Source of the DNA: Kangiellaceae bacterium
GTDB taxonomy: Bacteria > Pseudomonadota > Gammaproteobacteria > Enterobacterales > Kangiellaceae
Direction of reading: 5' to 3'
Length of the DNA: 64,000 nucleotides
Assembly: GCA_013373015.1 (NCBI GenBank)
Contig: JABXIQ010000035.1
Span: 1 to 64,000 of the forward strand
Both the position numbers and the translations under genes were made by a program. Each line of letters opens with the position of its first letter. Positions within the stretch are counted from its first letter, which is position 1. A model generated the notes under the pieces. That model worked only from the letters and a program-made list of their open reading frames with translations, did no database searches and was not told where the DNA came from. Shown here in pieces: positions 56,349 to 64,000 of this stretch.

Positions 56349-58142
56349 TCATGGGTTAAAAGCTGCTTTTATTCTCTTTTCAAAAGTTTGAGCATCTTCA
56401 AAACCTGTAGCTCTAAACTTAGGCAACTCATTGCCTTGAGCATCAAAAAACATAATGCTTGGTAAGCCTAGTACTTCAAAGGCTTCCATCAGTTCTACAT
56501 CAGCTGCGTCATTAGCGGTTACGTCAGCTTGTAACAAAAGTGTATTGGATAAAGCGGCTGCAACTTTTGCGTCGCTGAACACAAGCGCTTCAAATTCGTA
56601 ACAGGCAGCACACCATTCAGCAAAAAAATCAAGCATTACGGTTTTACCTTGCGCATTGGCTTGGGTAACCATTTCTTCCAGTTGAGCTAGTGTTTTTATG
56701 CGCTCAAAGGGCAAATGGCTTTGTTTACTAATGCTAGCGCTGTCTGATATTCCATTTTTTAGAGGGTTAAGTAAGTCTCGATTGCTTTTTGCGCCACCTA
56801 CCATTAAGAGTGCGCCATAGATCATTAAGATTAAACCAACAGCTTTGAATAAATTACTCCAACCAGTGTGAGCCAATTGATTTTTCAATAAAAAGAAACC
56901 AGGAATGATGGATAATAAAGCCCAGCCGTACATATAGATCGAGTTAGGCAATAGGTGTTTGATTAAATATAAAGCCACAGCCAACATAGCCACACCAAAT
57001 GCCGCCTTGATTCCGTCCATCCAAGGGCCAGCTTTGGGCAGGAATTTGCCTTCTGTAACAGCGATGATTATAAGCGGAATGCCCATGCCGATGCCAAGGC
57101 CGTATAAGGCGGTTGCTCCTAGAAAAAGATCTCCAGATTGAGCAATAAATAATAGAATTGCAATTAAAGGAACTGTTACACAAGGTGAGACAATTAAGGC
57201 CGAGATTGCCCCCATAATTGCAGTACCGATATAGCCGCCTTTTTGTGAGTTGCTTTTATTGGCTAGTTTGGCTTGCAAACTGGCTGGGAGTTGTAGCTCA
57301 TAAAACCCAAACATAGATAAGGATAAGATCACAAAGACGATAGCTGCGCCAATAACGAAAAATGGACTTTGCAAGTACCCCGACAATGACTTGCCTGCAA
57401 GCGCCACTAAAACGCCAAAAATAGCGTAAACAATTGCAACTGCTTGGGTGTAGGTGAGCGATAATCCAAAGGCGCGGCGAGTGCTAATATCTTTTCCTTG
57501 TCCTGCAATAATGCCAGAAATAATCGGGATCATGGGAAAGACGCATGGCGTGAAAGTTAAACCAAGCCCTATCAAGATAAATTTAAAGAAATTCCAGATG
57601 GCGCTATTATCTTCAAGGCTTGTGATTAAGCTATCTTGCTCGCTAACAAACTCAGTGGTAGCGCCTTTTTGTATAACTGAGGCTACGCCATCAATGGCTA
57701 AAGTTACCGTTCGAGTGGTTGGTGGATAGCACAAGCGATCAGTGGCACAACCTTGAAAATCGACGCTAAAATTGATTTCCGATTGCGCATTACTAAAAGG
57801 CACAGAGGCTTCAAAAAAGTTATGATAAACCTCAGTCATGCCGAAGTAAGGGTCATCTTTAACTTTGCCCTCTGGCATTAAGGCTTCACCCAGCGTGGCA
57901 TTGTCACTGTTGAATGCGAAACGCTCCCGATACATATAGTAATCTTCAGCGATTTCAAATTTAACCAGAATGTTATTATCTAGCACTTCTACCTGTAGCT
58001 TGAATGCTTCATCAACGGTCAGAAGCTCTTCTTGATTGCCCAGCAGTTCGTTGAGGTTAATGGTAAAAGCCTTTGCTTGGTTAATAACTAACCATGAGCT
58101 GGAGAATACTAATAACAAAAAGCCAAAAATAATCTTTTTCAT
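56349..58142 (-). CDS. dsbD: Thiol:disulfide interchange protein DsbD
   Basis: A 597-residue inner-membrane protein moving reducing equivalents from cytosolic thioredoxin to periplasmic partners. Signal peptide, N-terminal alpha domain with C...C in FQGCATDRLCYPP, a membrane beta domain with redox cysteines in FTPCVFPMIPIISGI and VSPCVTVPLIAILL, and a C-terminal thioredoxin gamma domain with the WCAACYEFE site. It starts 28 bp after the apbE-like gene, on the same strand as the tlpA-DUF4266-DUF3570-apbE genes, so it is probably the reductant supply of that operon. Confidence 0.95.
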   Translation of the reverse strand: MKKIIFGFLLLVFSSSWLVINQAKAFTINLNELLGNQEELLTVDEAFKLQVEVLDNNILVKFEIAEDYYMYRERFAFNSDNATLGEALMPEGKVKDDPYFGMTEVYHNFFEASVPFSNAQSEINFSVDFQGCATDRLCYPPTTRTVTLAIDGVASVIQKGATTEFVSEQDSLITSLEDNSAIWNFFKFILIGLGLTFTPCVFPMIPIISGIIAGQGKDISTRRAFGLSLTYTQAVAIVYAIFGVLVALAGKSLSGYLQSPFFVIGAAIVFVILSLSMFGFYELQLPASLQAKLANKSNSQKGGYIGTAIMGAISALIVSPCVTVPLIAILLFIAQSGDLFLGATALYGLGIGMGIPLIIIAVTEGKFLPKAGPWMDGIKAAFGVAMLAVALYLIKHLLPNSIYMYGWALLSIIPGFFLLKNQLAHTGWSNLFKAVGLILMIYGALLMVGGAKSNRDLLNPLKNGISDSASISKQSHLPFERIKTLAQLEEMVTQANAQGKTVMLDFFAEWCAACYEFEALVFSDAKVAAALSNTLLLQADVTANDAADVELMEAFEVLGLPSIMFFDAQGNELPKFRATGFEDAQTFEKRIKAAFNP

Positions 58143-58170
58143 TTAAAAAACTCTATTGTCTTGAGGTGTC

Positions 58171-59073
58171 TTAACGTCTTTGGATCCAGTGCTTAACTTG
58201 TTGGGCTTGTAGAAAACGCTCTGCCCCTTTGCCTTTTAGCATGGCTATGGTCGAAAGCATACCCGCTTGAGTACAATTTTCAGCCATAACCGTAATAGAA
58301 GCGGCTGCGTGCTCTACTGGCCAACCCGTATTCGGGTCTAATACATGGCTGAGGATTTTACCATGATCCGTGAGATAACGCTTACTATCGCCACTGGTAG
58401 CTACTGCGCCAAAGCGAAGTCCAATCTTTGGCTGCTGTTTACCACCCAGGGCAATAGGCTCAATACCTATTGCCCAATGTGGTCTAGAATCAGGTGGTTT
58501 TGTTGAATAGATATCGCCGCCAAAATTAATCAAAACGGGTGCTTCGGTTAGTTGTTTCACCAGCATTGCAGCACTATCCACAGCATATTCCTTGCCAATC
58601 CCACCAAAATCTATAGCCATGCCAGAGGGCATTGTTAGCAATGGTTTATTCCATTGCACTTTGTGCCAGCCTACCATCGCTAGAAGTAGTTTGACTTCGC
58701 TTTCTTCAGGAATGTTACAACTTCCATCAAATTTCCATAATTTCCCTAATATACCAGAACTAATATCAAACATACCTTCGCTGGATTGGTAGCAAAAATC
58801 TGCAAAATCAATCAGTTTGGCGGTTTCATCATCGACCTTGATGCTCTCGCCTAAGGCATGGTTAATTTTATAGATAACGTTGTCTTTTCTATAGCGACTA
58901 AATGTAGTTTCGATGCGCCAAGCTTCTTGCGCTGCTGTTTGGCAAACTTTTCGGGCAAGCTGCATATCATCAGTTTCGATAAGAACTTCGCAAGGACCTG
59001 CCATGGCTTGAAATGAGCCAGTAACAAACCCTTGCGAGCTTCGGTAGGAAACCGTTCGTTGCGGTAACGCCAT
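58171..59073 (-). CDS. ApbE-like FAD:protein FMN transferase, signal-less variant
   Basis: A 300-residue ApbE-fold protein. GMAIDFGGIGKEYAVD, APVLINFGGDIY, VATSGDSKRYLTDHGKILSHVLDPNTGWPV and CTQAGMLSTIAMLKG correspond to ApbE motifs. Two oddities: it begins right at the catalytic domain with no signal peptide or lipobox (no in-frame start exists upstream), and the metal-binding Asp expected in A-D-x-L-[SA]-T is Gly271 (AGMLST), with Thr275 kept. It may be a cytosolic or modified enzyme. It lies between the DUF3570 and dsbD genes. Confidence 0.88.
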   Translation of the reverse strand: MALPQRTVSYRSSQGFVTGSFQAMAGPCEVLIETDDMQLARKVCQTAAQEAWRIETTFSRYRKDNVIYKINHALGESIKVDDETAKLIDFADFCYQSSEGMFDISSGILGKLWKFDGSCNIPEESEVKLLLAMVGWHKVQWNKPLLTMPSGMAIDFGGIGKEYAVDSAAMLVKQLTEAPVLINFGGDIYSTKPPDSRPHWAIGIEPIALGGKQQPKIGLRFGAVATSGDSKRYLTDHGKILSHVLDPNTGWPVEHAAASITVMAENCTQAGMLSTIAMLKGKGAERFLQAQQVKHWIQRR

Positions 59074-59092
59074 AAGTTTTACTGAGTTAAGG

Positions 59093-60412
59093 TTAAAAAC
59101 TGTAATTGATCCTTAACATAACGGCATTCCAGTCAGGTAACAAGGTTTGATCTTGTAGTACACCAAACTTGGCGGGTTCGGTGGGTGACTGGGCATAATA
59201 TTCTAACGCTATTCGCCAAGTTTGATCTGATTGAGTCGTCCAACCGTACTCCAGCCCAACTGTTACAGCATCATACTCCGCTAAACGATAGTCTGCAGAA
59301 GCATAAGTCGGCAAAGCTTGTGCTTGTAATAGATAGGGTTGATAAAATTCTGCTGCAGTCTGAGTATAATAGCGAACATGCGGTTGTATGTAGCTATCAT
59401 TATTCAGCGCAAAGCGGTATTTGAGGTCAACGGTATGAGAATCAATATCCCAATCATCGGTCATATAGCGGTATGACACATCAACAACGTCACCGTCAAT
59501 AAAACGCTTGTAACGGCCAAAAAGGCTATGTTTGGTTCTTTTATCTGGTCGATTTTCAAAGAGTACATTTGCGGTGGCGATGCCATCATCAAAATAATTA
59601 CCATCAGCACCTAAAACACTGAGTACCTTATAAGGATCGTTGTGATAACCATCGGACATACTGTAAGAATAGTTAAGTTGAAATAAACTATATTTATCAA
59701 TGACTTGAGTCATTCCAAATAGTATATCTAAAGTATCCTTATCTTGTGTACCGTCGAGTTTGGCTTGAGATGCGCCTACAGGCTGCATGCGACTCAATGC
59801 AATCGGTGCACCTCCAACGGGGTCAATGGTATCCGAAGCGAAGGATAAGCCTGCAAATAATGTCGTATTGTTATTGTTAAAGTCATGGCTAATGTTGGCG
59901 TTTACCGAAGCAGAAAAATAATCATACTCATTAGATGCATTCGCTCCCACTGTCATCTGTGTGCTTTCTGCTAAAGGAAAGCTCCAATTGGCAGCTAAAG
60001 CAACACGAGTATCTTTGAAGCTATCATCTAATGGATAAACGTTAGCGCCAACTTGGTAATCTGCATTACCAGATGGTGTCGTAAATGTTTGCACTTGATT
60101 TGAAGCCACTGCCCCACTCGGAGAGGCGCCAGTTAACGAATCAACGGTTAGCTTAAAACTGATAGATTCGTCTTCGTCTAACTGTTTACTGGCCATAAAT
60201 ACTGGTTCAAAGGCTTGTACGCGGCTATCGCTCTCCGAATAGAATAATAAAGCTGCATCAAATTTCCATTCGTAATCTGAGGCCGTCTGTTCGGTTTGGT
60301 TGTTGGTAGGACTTGATAAAGAATCTGTGTCTTGCTGAGAAAGTGCGGGTTGAGTTAATAGCGCAAGAGTGGCACTGGCTAAAGAAGTTTTGATAATTTT
60401 GTTTTTATTCAT
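59093..60412 (-). CDS. DUF3570 outer-membrane barrel protein
   Basis: A 439-residue exported protein: signal peptide about 1-25 (cleavage after ALS), then a beta-rich body of alternating strands with aromatic girdles, ending in ...LRINYSF, the terminal-Phe signature of outer-membrane beta-barrels. This matches DUF3570. Residues 91-97 read D-S-L-T-G-A-S, similar to ApbE flavinylation targets (D-x-x-[ST]-G-A-[ST]). Its function is unknown. It has a strong AAGGAA ribosome site and lies 15 bp after the DUF4266 gene and 19 bp before the apbE-like gene. Confidence 0.9.
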   Translation of the reverse strand: MNKNKIIKTSLASATLALLTQPALSQQDTDSLSSPTNNQTEQTASDYEWKFDAALLFYSESDSRVQAFEPVFMASKQLDEDESISFKLTVDSLTGASPSGAVASNQVQTFTTPSGNADYQVGANVYPLDDSFKDTRVALAANWSFPLAESTQMTVGANASNEYDYFSASVNANISHDFNNNNTTLFAGLSFASDTIDPVGGAPIALSRMQPVGASQAKLDGTQDKDTLDILFGMTQVIDKYSLFQLNYSYSMSDGYHNDPYKVLSVLGADGNYFDDGIATANVLFENRPDKRTKHSLFGRYKRFIDGDVVDVSYRYMTDDWDIDSHTVDLKYRFALNNDSYIQPHVRYYTQTAAEFYQPYLLQAQALPTYASADYRLAEYDAVTVGLEYGWTTQSDQTWRIALEYYAQSPTEPAKFGVLQDQTLLPDWNAVMLRINYSF

Positions 60413-60427
60413 AGTAATTCCTTAGGT

Positions 60428-60649
60428 TTAGTTACAACCACAACCGCCGCCAGCGTAAGATTTGCCGCCACTAGAAGCCTCTTTGCTAAAATAAATGTGA
60501 TCATCTAACGCATCTGTAAGAGGTTGTTCATTTAATGCCATTTCAGGTTTTGCTAATACATCTTTTTCCCAGGGTTGAACACCCATAGTGGCGCAACCGC
60601 CCAGTGTGCTAATCAAAATAGCTAAAAGTAAAAGTCGTTTTTTTTGCAT
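60428..60649 (-). CDS. DUF4266 small lipoprotein
   Basis: A 73-residue lipoprotein with lipobox LGGC (C19), a short mature domain (VQPWEKDVLAKPEMAL, HIYFSKEA) and a Gly-rich C-terminal tail ending G-G-G-C-G-C-N with C70 and C72. This is the DUF4266 pattern. I start at the ATG 60649, which has GGAG 8 nt upstream; the longer frame to 60691 lacks a site. The vicinal cysteines next to a periplasmic thioredoxin gene suggest redox or metal chemistry, but this is inference. Confidence 0.88.
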   Translation of the reverse strand: MQKKRLLLLAILISTLGGCATMGVQPWEKDVLAKPEMALNEQPLTDALDDHIYFSKEASSGGKSYAGGGCGCN

Positions 60650-60706
60650 GAAGTAGACTCCAGTATTGATTTCAATAGACTGATTTTTCAAAAGATAAAA
60701 GTTGAT

Positions 60707-61243
60707 TTATTGAGCTACATTGGTAGCTTGCGTTATTGGCTGTTCAGAGTCATTACTATTGTGCTCAGCAATGGGTTGGACAAGCAAGGACTCGATATAT
60801 TGTTGTAATACTTGAATATCTTTTTGCCTAAAGCCCTTATGTAGGTATTTTGCGACTCCCTCTCGATTGAAAATATAAGTGCTAGGCATGGCTTGAACTT
60901 GGAATTGTTTAGCTATTTCTCCATCAGGATCGAAAATCACCTCAAAATTTGCAGGGTATTGTTGTAGGAACTGTTTCGCTTGCTCAATATCATTATCTTC
61001 GTTGATTGCCAGAATAACGAAGTCTTGCGAAGCAAATCGCTCATTGAATTGATTCATCGCGGGAAACGATTTCCGGCATGGACCACACCATGAGGCCCAA
61101 AAATCTACATAAACCACTTTGTTCTGGTATTGGCTTAGATCTAATGTTTCGGATTGAGCAGGTTCTACATATCCTAGAGTGATAGCAGCCACGGCAATTG
61201 AGATTGTTAATACTCTAGGCAAAAAGCTAATTAATATTTTCAC
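60707..61243 (-). CDS. TlpA/ResA-type exported thioredoxin-like protein
   Basis: A 178-residue thioredoxin-fold protein. Signal peptide or anchor about 1-31; redox site W52-C53-G-P-C56 in FWASWCGPCRKSFPAM; cis-Pro P120 in QAMPSTYIF. A low-complexity Gln/Asn/Ser-rich C-terminal tail ends it. It likely reduces a periplasmic partner and is itself reduced by DsbD encoded four genes downstream. The start codon is GTG (61243), first gene of the operon. Confidence 0.93.
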   Translation of the reverse strand: MKILISFLPRVLTISIAVAAITLGYVEPAQSETLDLSQYQNKVVYVDFWASWCGPCRKSFPAMNQFNERFASQDFVILAINEDNDIEQAKQFLQQYPANFEVIFDPDGEIAKQFQVQAMPSTYIFNREGVAKYLHKGFRQKDIQVLQQYIESLLVQPIAEHNSNDSEQPITQATNVAQ

Positions 61244-61273
61244 AGTTAAAATTATTAGTTGAATAATAGGCTG

Positions 61274-61301
61274 AATTTACTCTTAACTAACCGCTAGACA
61301 A
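61274..61301 (-). promoter_or_regulatory. Predicted promoter of the tlpA-DUF4266-DUF3570-apbE-dsbD operon
   Basis: On the minus strand -35 TTGTCT (61296-61301) and -10 TAAATT (61274-61279) have a 16-bp spacer. The palindrome at 61303-61314 sits immediately upstream of the -35 box, centred about 7 bp before it, near position -41.5, where class II activators bind. Motif-based inference. Confidence 0.45.
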
Positions 61302-61302
61302 T

Positions 61303-61314
61303 GGGCATATGGCC
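61303..61314. promoter_or_regulatory. Palindrome 1 (GGGCATATGGCC), likely operator
   Basis: A 12-bp dyad with one mismatched pair sharing the core GG-N-CATATG-N-CC with the second site at 61367-61378. Centres are 64 bp apart, about six helical turns, so both lie on the same DNA face. Likely bound by the adjacent LuxR-type regulator. Confidence 0.5.
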
Positions 61315-61366
61315 TAATTTAGGTGAAATTGTTTAATAAACTTAATAATTGCGTACTCTAACAATA

Positions 61367-61378
61367 GGACATATGTCC
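61367..61378. promoter_or_regulatory. Palindrome 2 (GGACATATGTCC), likely operator
   Basis: A perfect 12-bp palindrome overlapping the -35 region of the regulator's own promoter (-10 TATAAT at 61398-61403). Suits autoregulation by the regulator encoded at 61514. Confidence 0.55.
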
Positions 61379-61397
61379 ATTATCATGAAAAAATGTT

Positions 61398-61403
61398 TAT
61401 AAT
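61398..61403 (+). promoter_or_regulatory. -10 box of the LuxR-type regulator gene
   Basis: A consensus TATAAT 111 bp before the regulator ATG. The matching -35 region (about 61374-61380) is poor and overlaps palindrome 2, a sign of regulator-dependent expression. Confidence 0.45.
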
Positions 61404-61513
61404 GCTTTTTTTCACAAAACTTAGCGGTTTAATTTTTGTCCTAAGTTGAACTAAAGATACCGTGCTGTTTGATTATAAAAAAGTTAACCCATTGAGTAAG
61501 GCCCATTTGATAG

Positions 61514-62011
61514 ATGAGTAAATATAAATTAATTGCGCTCATTATAGCGCTAGCCGTTATTGCTATTGCTAATACACTAGATATGTTTAACGACTTAGCG
61601 CTTGACGTAAGTATGACTCATTTGCTTGAAGAAGGCGTTATAGTTGTGTTTTCAATTGGTTTGATGGGTTACTTGATTTATCACTTGTTACAACAAGCAA
61701 AGGTGTTAGAAAGTCTAAAGCGAGAGTTGAGTAGTACTCAGCAGCTAGTAAATGAGCAAACCGAAGAGTTGCGCCAAGCTCGTAAAGAATACAGTCAAGT
61801 TATCAAAAAACAGTTTGAGCAATGGGGTTTTAGTGAAACAGAGAAAAATACCGCTTATCTGTTACTCAAAGGCCTTAGCCTTAAAGAAGTTGCTGAAGTT
61901 AGGGACATTAAAGAAAAAACGGTGCGTCAACAAGCCTCCAATCTTTATTCCAAAGCAAATTTACCTGGTCGTCATGCTTTAGCAGCTTGGTTTTTTGAGG
62001 ATTTCCTTTAA
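61514..62011 (+). CDS. Membrane-anchored LuxR-type HTH regulator
   Basis: A 165-residue protein with two N-terminal TM helices (about 5-23 and 42-61), a coiled coil (about 68-100; LKRELSSTQQLVNEQTEELRQ), and a C-terminal LuxR-type helix-turn-helix (about 108-160; FSETEKNTAYLLLKGLSLKEVAEVRDIKEKTVRQQASNLYSKANLPGRHAL). The DNA-binding domain faces the cytoplasm, so it could sense envelope state directly. Divergent from the redox operon, with a shared 270-bp region holding both palindromes. Confidence 0.9.
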   Translation: MSKYKLIALIIALAVIAIANTLDMFNDLALDVSMTHLLEEGVIVVFSIGLMGYLIYHLLQQAKVLESLKRELSSTQQLVNEQTEELRQARKEYSQVIKKQFEQWGFSETEKNTAYLLLKGLSLKEVAEVRDIKEKTVRQQASNLYSKANLPGRHALAAWFFEDFL

Positions 62012-62014
62012 TTA

Positions 62015-62335
62015 TTACTTAAGTGAATCCGCTAGCCATTGCAGATAAGAGCCAGAAGCCTGCTCAATATTACAACTAATTAACTCAGGAACTTCATACG
62101 GATGTTCTTGTTCCAGCAAACCATCAAGCTTGTGTATCAGCTTTTCTTCAGTTTTGATCAACATTAAAATCTCAGCTTCTTGCTCAATCTCGCCTTGCCA
62201 TTGATAGACGCTGATAATATTGGGCAATAGATTGACGCAGGCTGCAAGTTTACGCTCAACCATCAGGCTCGCTAAATGCTGGGCAACCTCAAGATCAGGT
62301 GCAGTACACAGTGCTATTTGAAAATTTTTAGCCAT
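62015..62335 (-). CDS. cutA: Divalent-cation tolerance protein CutA
   Basis: A 106-residue trimeric CutA1 family protein: AALCTAPD-like N terminus (FQIALCTAPDLEVAQHLASLMVERKLAACVNLLPNIISVYQWQGEIE), EAEILMLIKTEE and EHPYEVPELISCNI. Its role in metal tolerance is not fully settled. Convergent with the LuxR-type gene, 3 bp apart. A dsbD-cutA linkage is common in gammaproteobacteria, which ties it loosely to the redox genes. Confidence 0.95.
   Translation of the reverse strand: MAKNFQIALCTAPDLEVAQHLASLMVERKLAACVNLLPNIISVYQWQGEIEQEAEILMLIKTEEKLIHKLDGLLEQEHPYEVPELISCNIEQASGSYLQWLADSLK

Positions 62336-63167: not shown

Positions 63168-64000
<833 letters not shown>

Follow-up and report, generated by a model that had tools for sequence, protein, structure and literature searches.

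A conserved TlpA-DUF4266-DUF3570-ApbE cassette beside a housekeeping dsbD gene in Kangiella: a candidate flavin relay to the outer membrane

What might a bacterium achieve by encoding a thioredoxin-like protein, a small lipoprotein, an outer-membrane barrel, a flavin transferase and DsbD side by side? Such a set occurs in a marine Kangiellaceae bacterium, within the 64,000-nucleotide stretch that we analyzed (the window; GenBank assembly GCA_013373015.1, contig JABXIQ010000035.1, positions 1 to 64,000), where tlpA-like, DUF4266, DUF3570, apbE and dsbD genes form a minus-strand run facing a LuxR-type gene. A preliminary description, made from the sequence alone, took this run for a redox operon of the cell envelope that is directed to the outer membrane and has its own membrane-anchored regulator, and our analysis supports that view. 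The operon is real, conserved and of a kind described in 2021. We consider it probable, with some reserve, that tlpA, DUF4266, DUF3570 and apbE together form a relay that carries electrons to the outer membrane by way of a bound flavin, under a regulator acting at the palindrome GGACATATGTCC. The features concerned are:

60707..61243, minus strand: tlpA-like gene, first of the cassette (Pfam PF08534/PF00578)
60428..60649, minus strand: DUF4266 lipoprotein (PF14086, 82 bits)
59093..60412, minus strand: DUF3570 outer-membrane beta-barrel (PF12094, 456 bits)
58171..59073, minus strand: apbE, flavin transferase of the ApbE fold (PF02424, 208 bits)
56349..58142, minus strand: dsbD (PF02683, 294 bits; PF11412, 107 bits; thioredoxin C-terminal end; NF001419, 626 bits)
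61514..62011, plus strand: LuxR-type regulator (GerE/LuxR, PF00196, 27 bits against a cut-off of 23.5)
62015..62335, minus strand: cutA, bounding the inserted block on the side away from dsbD (PF03091, 117 bits)
61367..61378, no strand: proposed operator GGACATATGTCC in the divergent tlpA/luxR promoter (conserved upstream of tlpA; motif also at promoters of luxR relatives)
61303..61314, no strand: second, weaker palindrome GGGCATATGGCC, nearer tlpA (10/12 match; 14.1 bits)

The arrangement was borne out: every gene has a Pfam match, and the intergenic gaps from tlpA to dsbD, when recomputed, are exactly 57, 15, 19 and 28 bp. The preliminary description had also seen no terminator between the genes. 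Our scan likewise placed zero minus-strand terminator-like sites there, which is weak evidence because its total (4 sites) lay below that of shuffled sequences (6.3, standard deviation 2.8); neither sigma-70 nor terminator scans gave an excess over shuffled sequence.

While the preliminary description knew no described function for the combination, such clusters were described in 2021 by Meheust et al. in eLife as 'DsbD systems', their function being left open in the accessible text (PMC8238504). According to that text, ApbE is typical of the 285 DsbD clusters, DUF3570 is present in 227, DUF4266 in 221 and a thioredoxin-like protein (PF13899) in 183, and 316 further clusters have no linked DsbD (PMC8238504). 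Clusters passed the filter there when a signal was present in at least one of the four types of target gene; a Chlorobium luteolum DUF3570 protein was flavinylated on co-expression with its ApbE; and electrons were proposed to pass from DsbD into a hybrid thioredoxin-like/flavin route (PMC8238504). By the published rule, a PF02683 DsbD within five genes of ApbE or DUF3570, our locus falls among these clusters by virtue of a housekeeping dsbD. Its TlpA-like protein matches PF08534, PF00578, PF13905 and PF00085, and not PF13899, the family named for the published clusters; this is not disqualifying because PF13899, found in 183 of 285, is typical and not required. Our locus shares with the published systems ApbE, DUF3570 with a flavin mononucleotide (FMN) motif, DUF4266 with its CxC end, a thioredoxin-like protein and DsbD, whereas its DsbD, unlike theirs as far as the accessible text goes, is encoded by the housekeeping gene of a cutA-dsbD pair.

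In the accessible text of PMC8238504 we found no mention of barrel orientation, a missing ApbE signal, an Asp-to-Gly change, a regulator or a palindrome. Literature searches, with most subscription journals outside their reach, returned no second paper on DUF3570, DUF4266 or the LIC13292 regulator family discussed below, and nothing on a membrane LuxR-type regulator of this kind. Three points not found in print are added here: an ApbE that is altered and lacks a signal, a position for the flavin motif on the barrel, and a regulator clade that goes with a palindrome. The electron path proposed in 2021 becomes testable through the altered ApbE, the regulator/palindrome pair and a flavin motif that maps to the long-loop side of a barrel without cysteines.

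A four-gene core at the cutA-dsbD site

Conservation was assessed in 80 named loci, the best of 420 confirmed places, found through DUF4266 with the search pattern [GA]GGGCGCN, which itself imposes the CxC end on this set. DUF3570 lies beside DUF4266 in all 80 and apbE in 71, with five of the nine misses running off the contig. The script scored tlpA in 67; by inspection of the other 13, three are windowing misses (L138, L180, L185) and one has tlpA downstream (L175). These four genes hold together far more closely than they do with dsbD, and their association is not a product of chance. Independent scattering of the genes had been named in the preliminary description as the outcome that would speak against an operon; the four-gene core stays mostly together, and dsbD does not stay with it.

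The local picture in Kangiella explains the position of dsbD. All 20 surveyed genomes carry dsbD and seven carry DUF3570 (G000, the window's genome, and G003, G004, G006, G011, G013 and G019). In all seven the order is cutA, tlpA, DUF4266, DUF3570, apbE, dsbD. Two, the window and G004, also have a luxR gene that separates cutA from tlpA; in G004 there is in addition about 2.7 kb of extra DNA between luxR and cutA (L064, 10405-13152). The 13 cassette-less genomes all have cutA and dsbD as neighbors, with fxsA on the cutA side and an EamA-type gene adjoining dsbD in eight (distances in this survey are between match ends). The dsbD gene is therefore the housekeeping member of a cutA-dsbD pair and a neighbor of the cassette by place. 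Its product has all six expected cysteines (132, 138, 200, 321, 511 and 514), making up three pairs, has the three domains of a DsbD, and exceeds the NCBIfam NF001419 cut-off of 330. The preliminary description had made DsbD a dedicated member; its presence in 20/20 Kangiella genomes, the 13 cassette-less ones included, and its rare linkage elsewhere do not bear this out, and the cutA-dsbD synteny and that rare linkage lead us to reject a dedicated DsbD. Despite its housekeeping status, DsbD may well be the electron donor to the cassette.

In a tree of four flanking proteins, with one outgroup, the seven cassette-bearing genomes are split in two, G000 and G004 standing beside the cassette-less G010, G012 and G015-G017, and we reject a single cassette-bearing group. 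The cassette-less G009 retains a relic of the apbE 3' end, interrupted by stop codons, between cutA and dsbD. The split tree and this relic favor losses over repeated gain at the same site: most simply, more lineages would once have had the cassette at the cutA-dsbD site and later lost it, with dsbD staying.

Thioredoxin, lipoprotein, barrel and ApbE

The TlpA/ResA-like protein is an exported thioredoxin with two cysteines only, C53 and C56 of a WCGPC motif, and its N-terminus is hydrophobic in 67/67 relatives scored by our hydropathy rule. DUF4266 has 73 residues, a lipobox LGGC and the sequence GGGCGCN at its stop codon. The ATG start yields this lipobox, and the TTG start at 60691 in the list of open reading frames is too long. 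Its only cysteines are that of the lipobox and those of the CGC, so that the C-terminal CXC of the published clusters is present; the lipobox cysteine, GG and CGC are invariant in 12 diverse rows, and 79 of 80 relatives have a hydrophobic N-terminus by the same rule. A second DUF4266 subtype (KPYER...GGGCGCN) was seen in L095, L097, L099, L105 and L107. The last of these, in G042, adjoins a DUF3570-like gene whose Pfam match begins only at about position 102, and it is possibly a different system. In L108 and L109, DUF4266 has a long N-terminal extension with no lipobox in the part read.

DUF3570 was modeled with AlphaFold2 from 69 sequences (mean predicted local distance difference test score, pLDDT, 89; residues 1-44 unreliable). 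By our own count of the DSSP strands, with five short in-loop ones excluded, the model has 16 barrel strands. It shows the features of an outer-membrane barrel, namely an even number of antiparallel strands, a C-terminal aromatic residue (the protein ends NYSF) and a signal-like N-terminus, the last judged by eye and hydrophobic in 27 of 30 scored relatives; the 50 Foldseek matches shown are outer-membrane proteins. Turns on the side of the termini have 2-5 residues, and the five loops of 17-35 residues all lie on the opposite side, together with three short ones. In barrels of this type the long-loop side is usually the outer side. The predicted FMN site, D91-S-L-T-G-A-S97, closes strand 3 and opens a 29-residue loop (99-127) with invariant G100, A101 and S114. 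D91 is present in 69/69 rows and the full D-x-x-[ST]GA[ST] in 66/69, in agreement with the acceptor rule D-x-x-[S/T]-G-A-[S/T] in the accessible text of PMC12052999; of the two [S/T]GA[S/T] motifs that PMC8238504 gives for DUF3570, the first, TGAS at 94-97, is complete here, and the second copy, SGAV at 99-102, is partial. In the model, the motif sits at a long-loop end, which would place it at the outer mouth or, with the loop folded inward, in the lumen. The window's DUF3570 has no cysteine, and 66/69 rows have none after residue 45. With no thiols in the protein and an apbE gene in the same cassette, flavin is its expected redox cofactor.

The cassette ApbE has the expected fold (model mean pLDDT 95): at E<=0.001, 39 PDB chains match it, all of them ApbE, FmnB or Ftp, with a template modeling score of 0.83 to 1vrm by query length. 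Its active site is altered. The accessible text of PMC12052999 names a Ser/His/Asp triad for Vibrio cholerae ApbE and FmnB, and the cassette protein lacks this canonical triad. Among 90 cassette ApbEs, some from loci duplicating one genome, Ser is kept in 89 and His in 90 (Ser227 and His243 in the window), and the Asp column holds Asp in none, Gly in 89 and one row cut short; Gly271 of the window aligns with the Asp of 1vrm and of FmnB. Two cysteines are invariant, Cys28 in 90/90 and Cys267 in 89/90, and are absent from the NQR-linked ApbE of the same genome, which adjoins nqrF and has, by eye, a lipoprotein signal.

The cassette ApbE itself has neither a signal nor a lipoprotein peptide by the hydropathy rule. 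A hydrophobic N-terminus was scored in 4/71 relatives, two in long open-reading-frame extensions and two barely over the line. There is no room for a signal peptide: only about 20 residues separate the first possible start from the conserved F21-x-x-M24, a strand is predicted at 9-13 and the DUF3570 stop is only 19 bp upstream. Compared with the ApbE/FmnB transferases in the accessible text of PMC12052999, the cassette ApbE is alike in its fold, triad Ser and His and an FMN motif in its substrate, and unlike in having no export signal, Gly for Asp and two invariant cysteines. That text also records cytosolic ApbEs and a seven-residue linear motif as sufficient for ApbE (PMC12052999). The cassette enzyme thus departs from two assumed rules, that ApbE is exported and that it works through a Ser-His-Asp triad, and where and how the flavin is attached becomes the question.

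The membrane regulator and its proposed operator

The preliminary description gave the LuxR-type gene two transmembrane helices. The gene and two hydrophobic stretches (about residues 7-22 and 41-60) are present, the stretches being judged by eye, and a helix-turn-helix domain is C-terminal. Across 27/27 aligned proteins, invariance within the membrane part is confined to D23, D27, H36 and E40, which lie between the hydrophobic stretches. The i, i+4 spacing at each helix end suggests a four-ligand site, which might bind metal. The regulator is similar over nearly its full length (residues 9-165) to NF047608, the LIC13292 family transcriptional regulator, but at 66 bits against a cut-off of 200 it is a relative and a non-member by the NCBI rule; no protein in 247 genomes exceeds that cut-off.

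Within Kangiella, the regulator is found at E<=2.1e-47 in exactly the seven cassette-bearing genomes, and the 13 cassette-less genomes yield two weak matches only (E 2e-4 to 5e-4). It stands away from the cassette in five of the seven. At the level of the order, DUF4266 occurs in 18/21 genomes with a full-length regulator of at least 60 bits versus 42/226 others (Fisher p 7e-10). We set this co-occurrence aside as support, given that relatedness is uncorrected and luxR often stands beside another operon, and we do not lean on it because the palindrome is missing from the scanned cassette promoters of other families.

Twenty relatives of the regulator adjoin genes of the RND metal-efflux type (9), cytochrome b561 (6), a flavocytochrome-c-type flavoprotein (2) or others (3). 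Family checks of these partners covered two RND proteins (L265, which exceeds the CusA/CzcA cut-off, and L271, a fragment that scores below it), five b561 proteins and one flavocytochrome. A FastTree phylogeny, midpoint-rooted and with support values not shown, largely tracks the partner gene; the G034 regulator is absent from it. The family's cassette-linked and unlinked Kangiella regulators form one clade beside a mostly RND-linked one, inside which fall two exceptions, L262 (b561 gene plus cassette) and L261 (b561), and the b561-linked regulators are not one group. The relatives divergent from CusA/CzcA-like RND operons are L256-L259, L263, L265, L266, L271 and L272, and in seven of these nine the best palindrome of the stretch lies in the shared promoter; it is possible that they constitute a family of metal-efflux regulators. 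Those beside b561 genes are L255, L261, L262, L267, L268 and L274. In L264 and L273 the neighborhood of the relative includes a flavocytochrome-c-type flavoprotein gene and one further gene, with the palindrome upstream of that pair. Given the metal-efflux, b561 and flavocytochrome genes beside its relatives, the regulator may represent a family of simple membrane sensors in which a single protein responds to metal or redox stress in the envelope.

In the 2.58 Mb genome, the tlpA-luxR promoter is the only place with at most one mismatch to GGACATATGTCC, a rarity that says little because a reversed-pattern control likewise gave one place; GGGCATATGGCC is the second-best matrix site of the whole window. 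The palindrome lies upstream of tlpA in all seven cassette-bearing Kangiella and in five family genomes with a linked regulator. These 12 sites score 15.3-26.4 bits, compared with a 99th percentile of 12.2 and a maximum of 18.2 in shuffles (n=1210), and three fall below that maximum. The 12 training promoters are not independent evidence because the palindrome was first seen by eye and the promoters were chosen with it. No palindrome was found in the promoters of the regulator-less family members G022, G024 and G028, nor in those of G029, G034 and G035, whose regulator is elsewhere (the G035 upstream stretch is short).

A further test used 20 stretches around regulator relatives, two of them from Kangiella, four more from the same family and none in the training set. 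In 13 of these, the site with the highest score anywhere in the stretch fell within the luxR promoter window, where about 0.7 was expected and 300 column-permuted palindromic matrices reached at most 4/20. By inspection, the top site in L261, L264, L268 and L273 is upstream of the partner gene; L256, L260 and L265 fail, although the second-best site is in the promoter for L256 and L265. The regulators of G375, G003, G011, G019, G032 and G034 were left out of the 20; the loci of G003, G011 and G019 have palindromes of 15.7-17.4 bits, and that of G375 (L205, 2.4 kb on a short contig) reaches at most 4.8 bits. Regulator and palindrome are associated, and this pattern of sequence conservation suggests that the regulator binds GGACATATGTCC. 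The palindrome and the regulator clade offer a handle on the inducing signal.

An outward flavin relay and its rivals

Gene content, the FMN motif, the lipobox and CGC end, the barrel model, the cutA-dsbD position, the altered ApbE and the regulator-palindrome association were all computed here. From them we infer a path in every electron-transfer step and direction, together with its acceptor, the membrane side of the flavin and the regulator's cue. ApbE would attach FMN to DUF3570 at D-S-L-T-G-A-S97. The housekeeping DsbD might reduce the TlpA-like protein, which in turn could reduce the C-terminal CGC of DUF4266; DUF4266 would then hand electrons to the FMN on DUF3570, and from there they might reach an acceptor, possibly a metal ion, on the cell surface or beyond it. 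The block between cutA and dsbD would be controlled by the D/D/H/E membrane LuxR-type regulator at GGACATATGTCC. Porin-cytochrome conduits such as MtrAB also use a barrel to carry electrons across the outer membrane; multihaem cytochromes do there what a covalent flavin and a small CxC lipoprotein would do here.

Several observations weigh against this relay. DsbD (above 150 bits) is linked to the cassette in just 8/80 named loci and 6/59 with full flanks, and in those six it is divergent (weaker dsbD-like matches of 54-67 bits in L167, L177 and L189 were excluded). Seven loci of Colwellia, Thalassotalea or Psychrosphaera type consist of DUF4266, DUF3570 and apbE without tlpA, and in one genome (L262) a cytochrome b561 gene occupies the tlpA slot ahead of DUF4266-DUF3570-apbE. 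In four loci apbE is missing although there is space for it. ApbE activity is not to be assumed, since the conserved catalytic Asp is gone in 89/89 readable rows. In other families, eight cassette promoters of seven regulator-positive genomes have no matrix site. DUF4266 and the regulator would also fit metal handling equally well. As separate observations, DUF3570/DUF4266 clusters that have the FMN motif and no apbE within reach occur at L161, L174, L188 and L193 (three of them Granulosicoccus), and the cassette promoter of G529 has a looser GGACA-N3-TGTCC repeat outside the matrix scoring. A b561-for-TlpA swap was rejected as a rule: L262 is one case, and no recurrent gene occupies the slot in the other tlpA-less loci.

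Metal handling is the alternative that we take most seriously, though we think it rather improbable: the CGC of DUF4266 would bind or reduce copper or iron, the barrel would reduce surface metal for uptake or detoxification, and the regulator would be a metal sensor. The four invariant D/D/H/E residues in 27/27 regulators and the mostly CusA/CzcA-linked sister clade point this way, as does a VIT1 iron transporter in 25 clusters of the known kind, according to the accessible text of PMC8238504. No metal transporter was identified beside the operon, however, and cutA belongs to a divalent-ion tolerance family by name only; the b561- and flavocytochrome-adjacent relatives suggest a redox cue instead. 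A CXC motif can also serve as a redox pair.

A DsbD-centered thiol-repair path dedicated to outer-membrane proteins, with the flavin secondary, would account for DsbD and a TlpA-like protein being encoded together here and for the CxC end of DUF4266. It is quite unlikely, given that dsbD sits beside cutA in cassette-less genomes and is rarely linked elsewhere, and that DUF3570 has no cysteine here and in nearly all rows but does have an FMN acceptor motif and an apbE gene beside its own. The absent cysteines lead us to reject thiol repair of the barrel itself, to which the preliminary description had extended the path. We give even less weight to a relay running inward or oxidatively, in which DUF3570-FMN would take electrons from outside or oxidize DUF4266 or TlpA. 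The sequences do not fix a direction, but DsbD and the TlpA/ResA-like proteins characterized so far are reductive; reversal is possible in principle, according to the accessible text of Meheust et al. (PMC8238504).

The outward flavin relay can be made more specific, at the price of greater doubt. Tentatively, three things would hold jointly: the signal-less ApbE flavinylates the pre-export barrel in the cytosol, FMN ends up at the outer mouth, and the D/D/H/E sensors bind GGACATATGTCC. With Gly in place of the catalytic Asp and two invariant cysteines added, ApbE would modify the unfolded barrel on its linear motif before Sec. A D-x3-D / H-x3-E site between the two helices of the sensors might accommodate a ligand or metal, and efflux genes of the CusA/CzcA type, cytochrome b561 genes and flavocytochrome genes would be under sister regulators.

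Beyond the cassette, the end of the window (63209-64000, plus strand) holds the start of a katG-like catalase-peroxidase gene, which has by eye a signal-peptide-like N-terminus and runs off the window.

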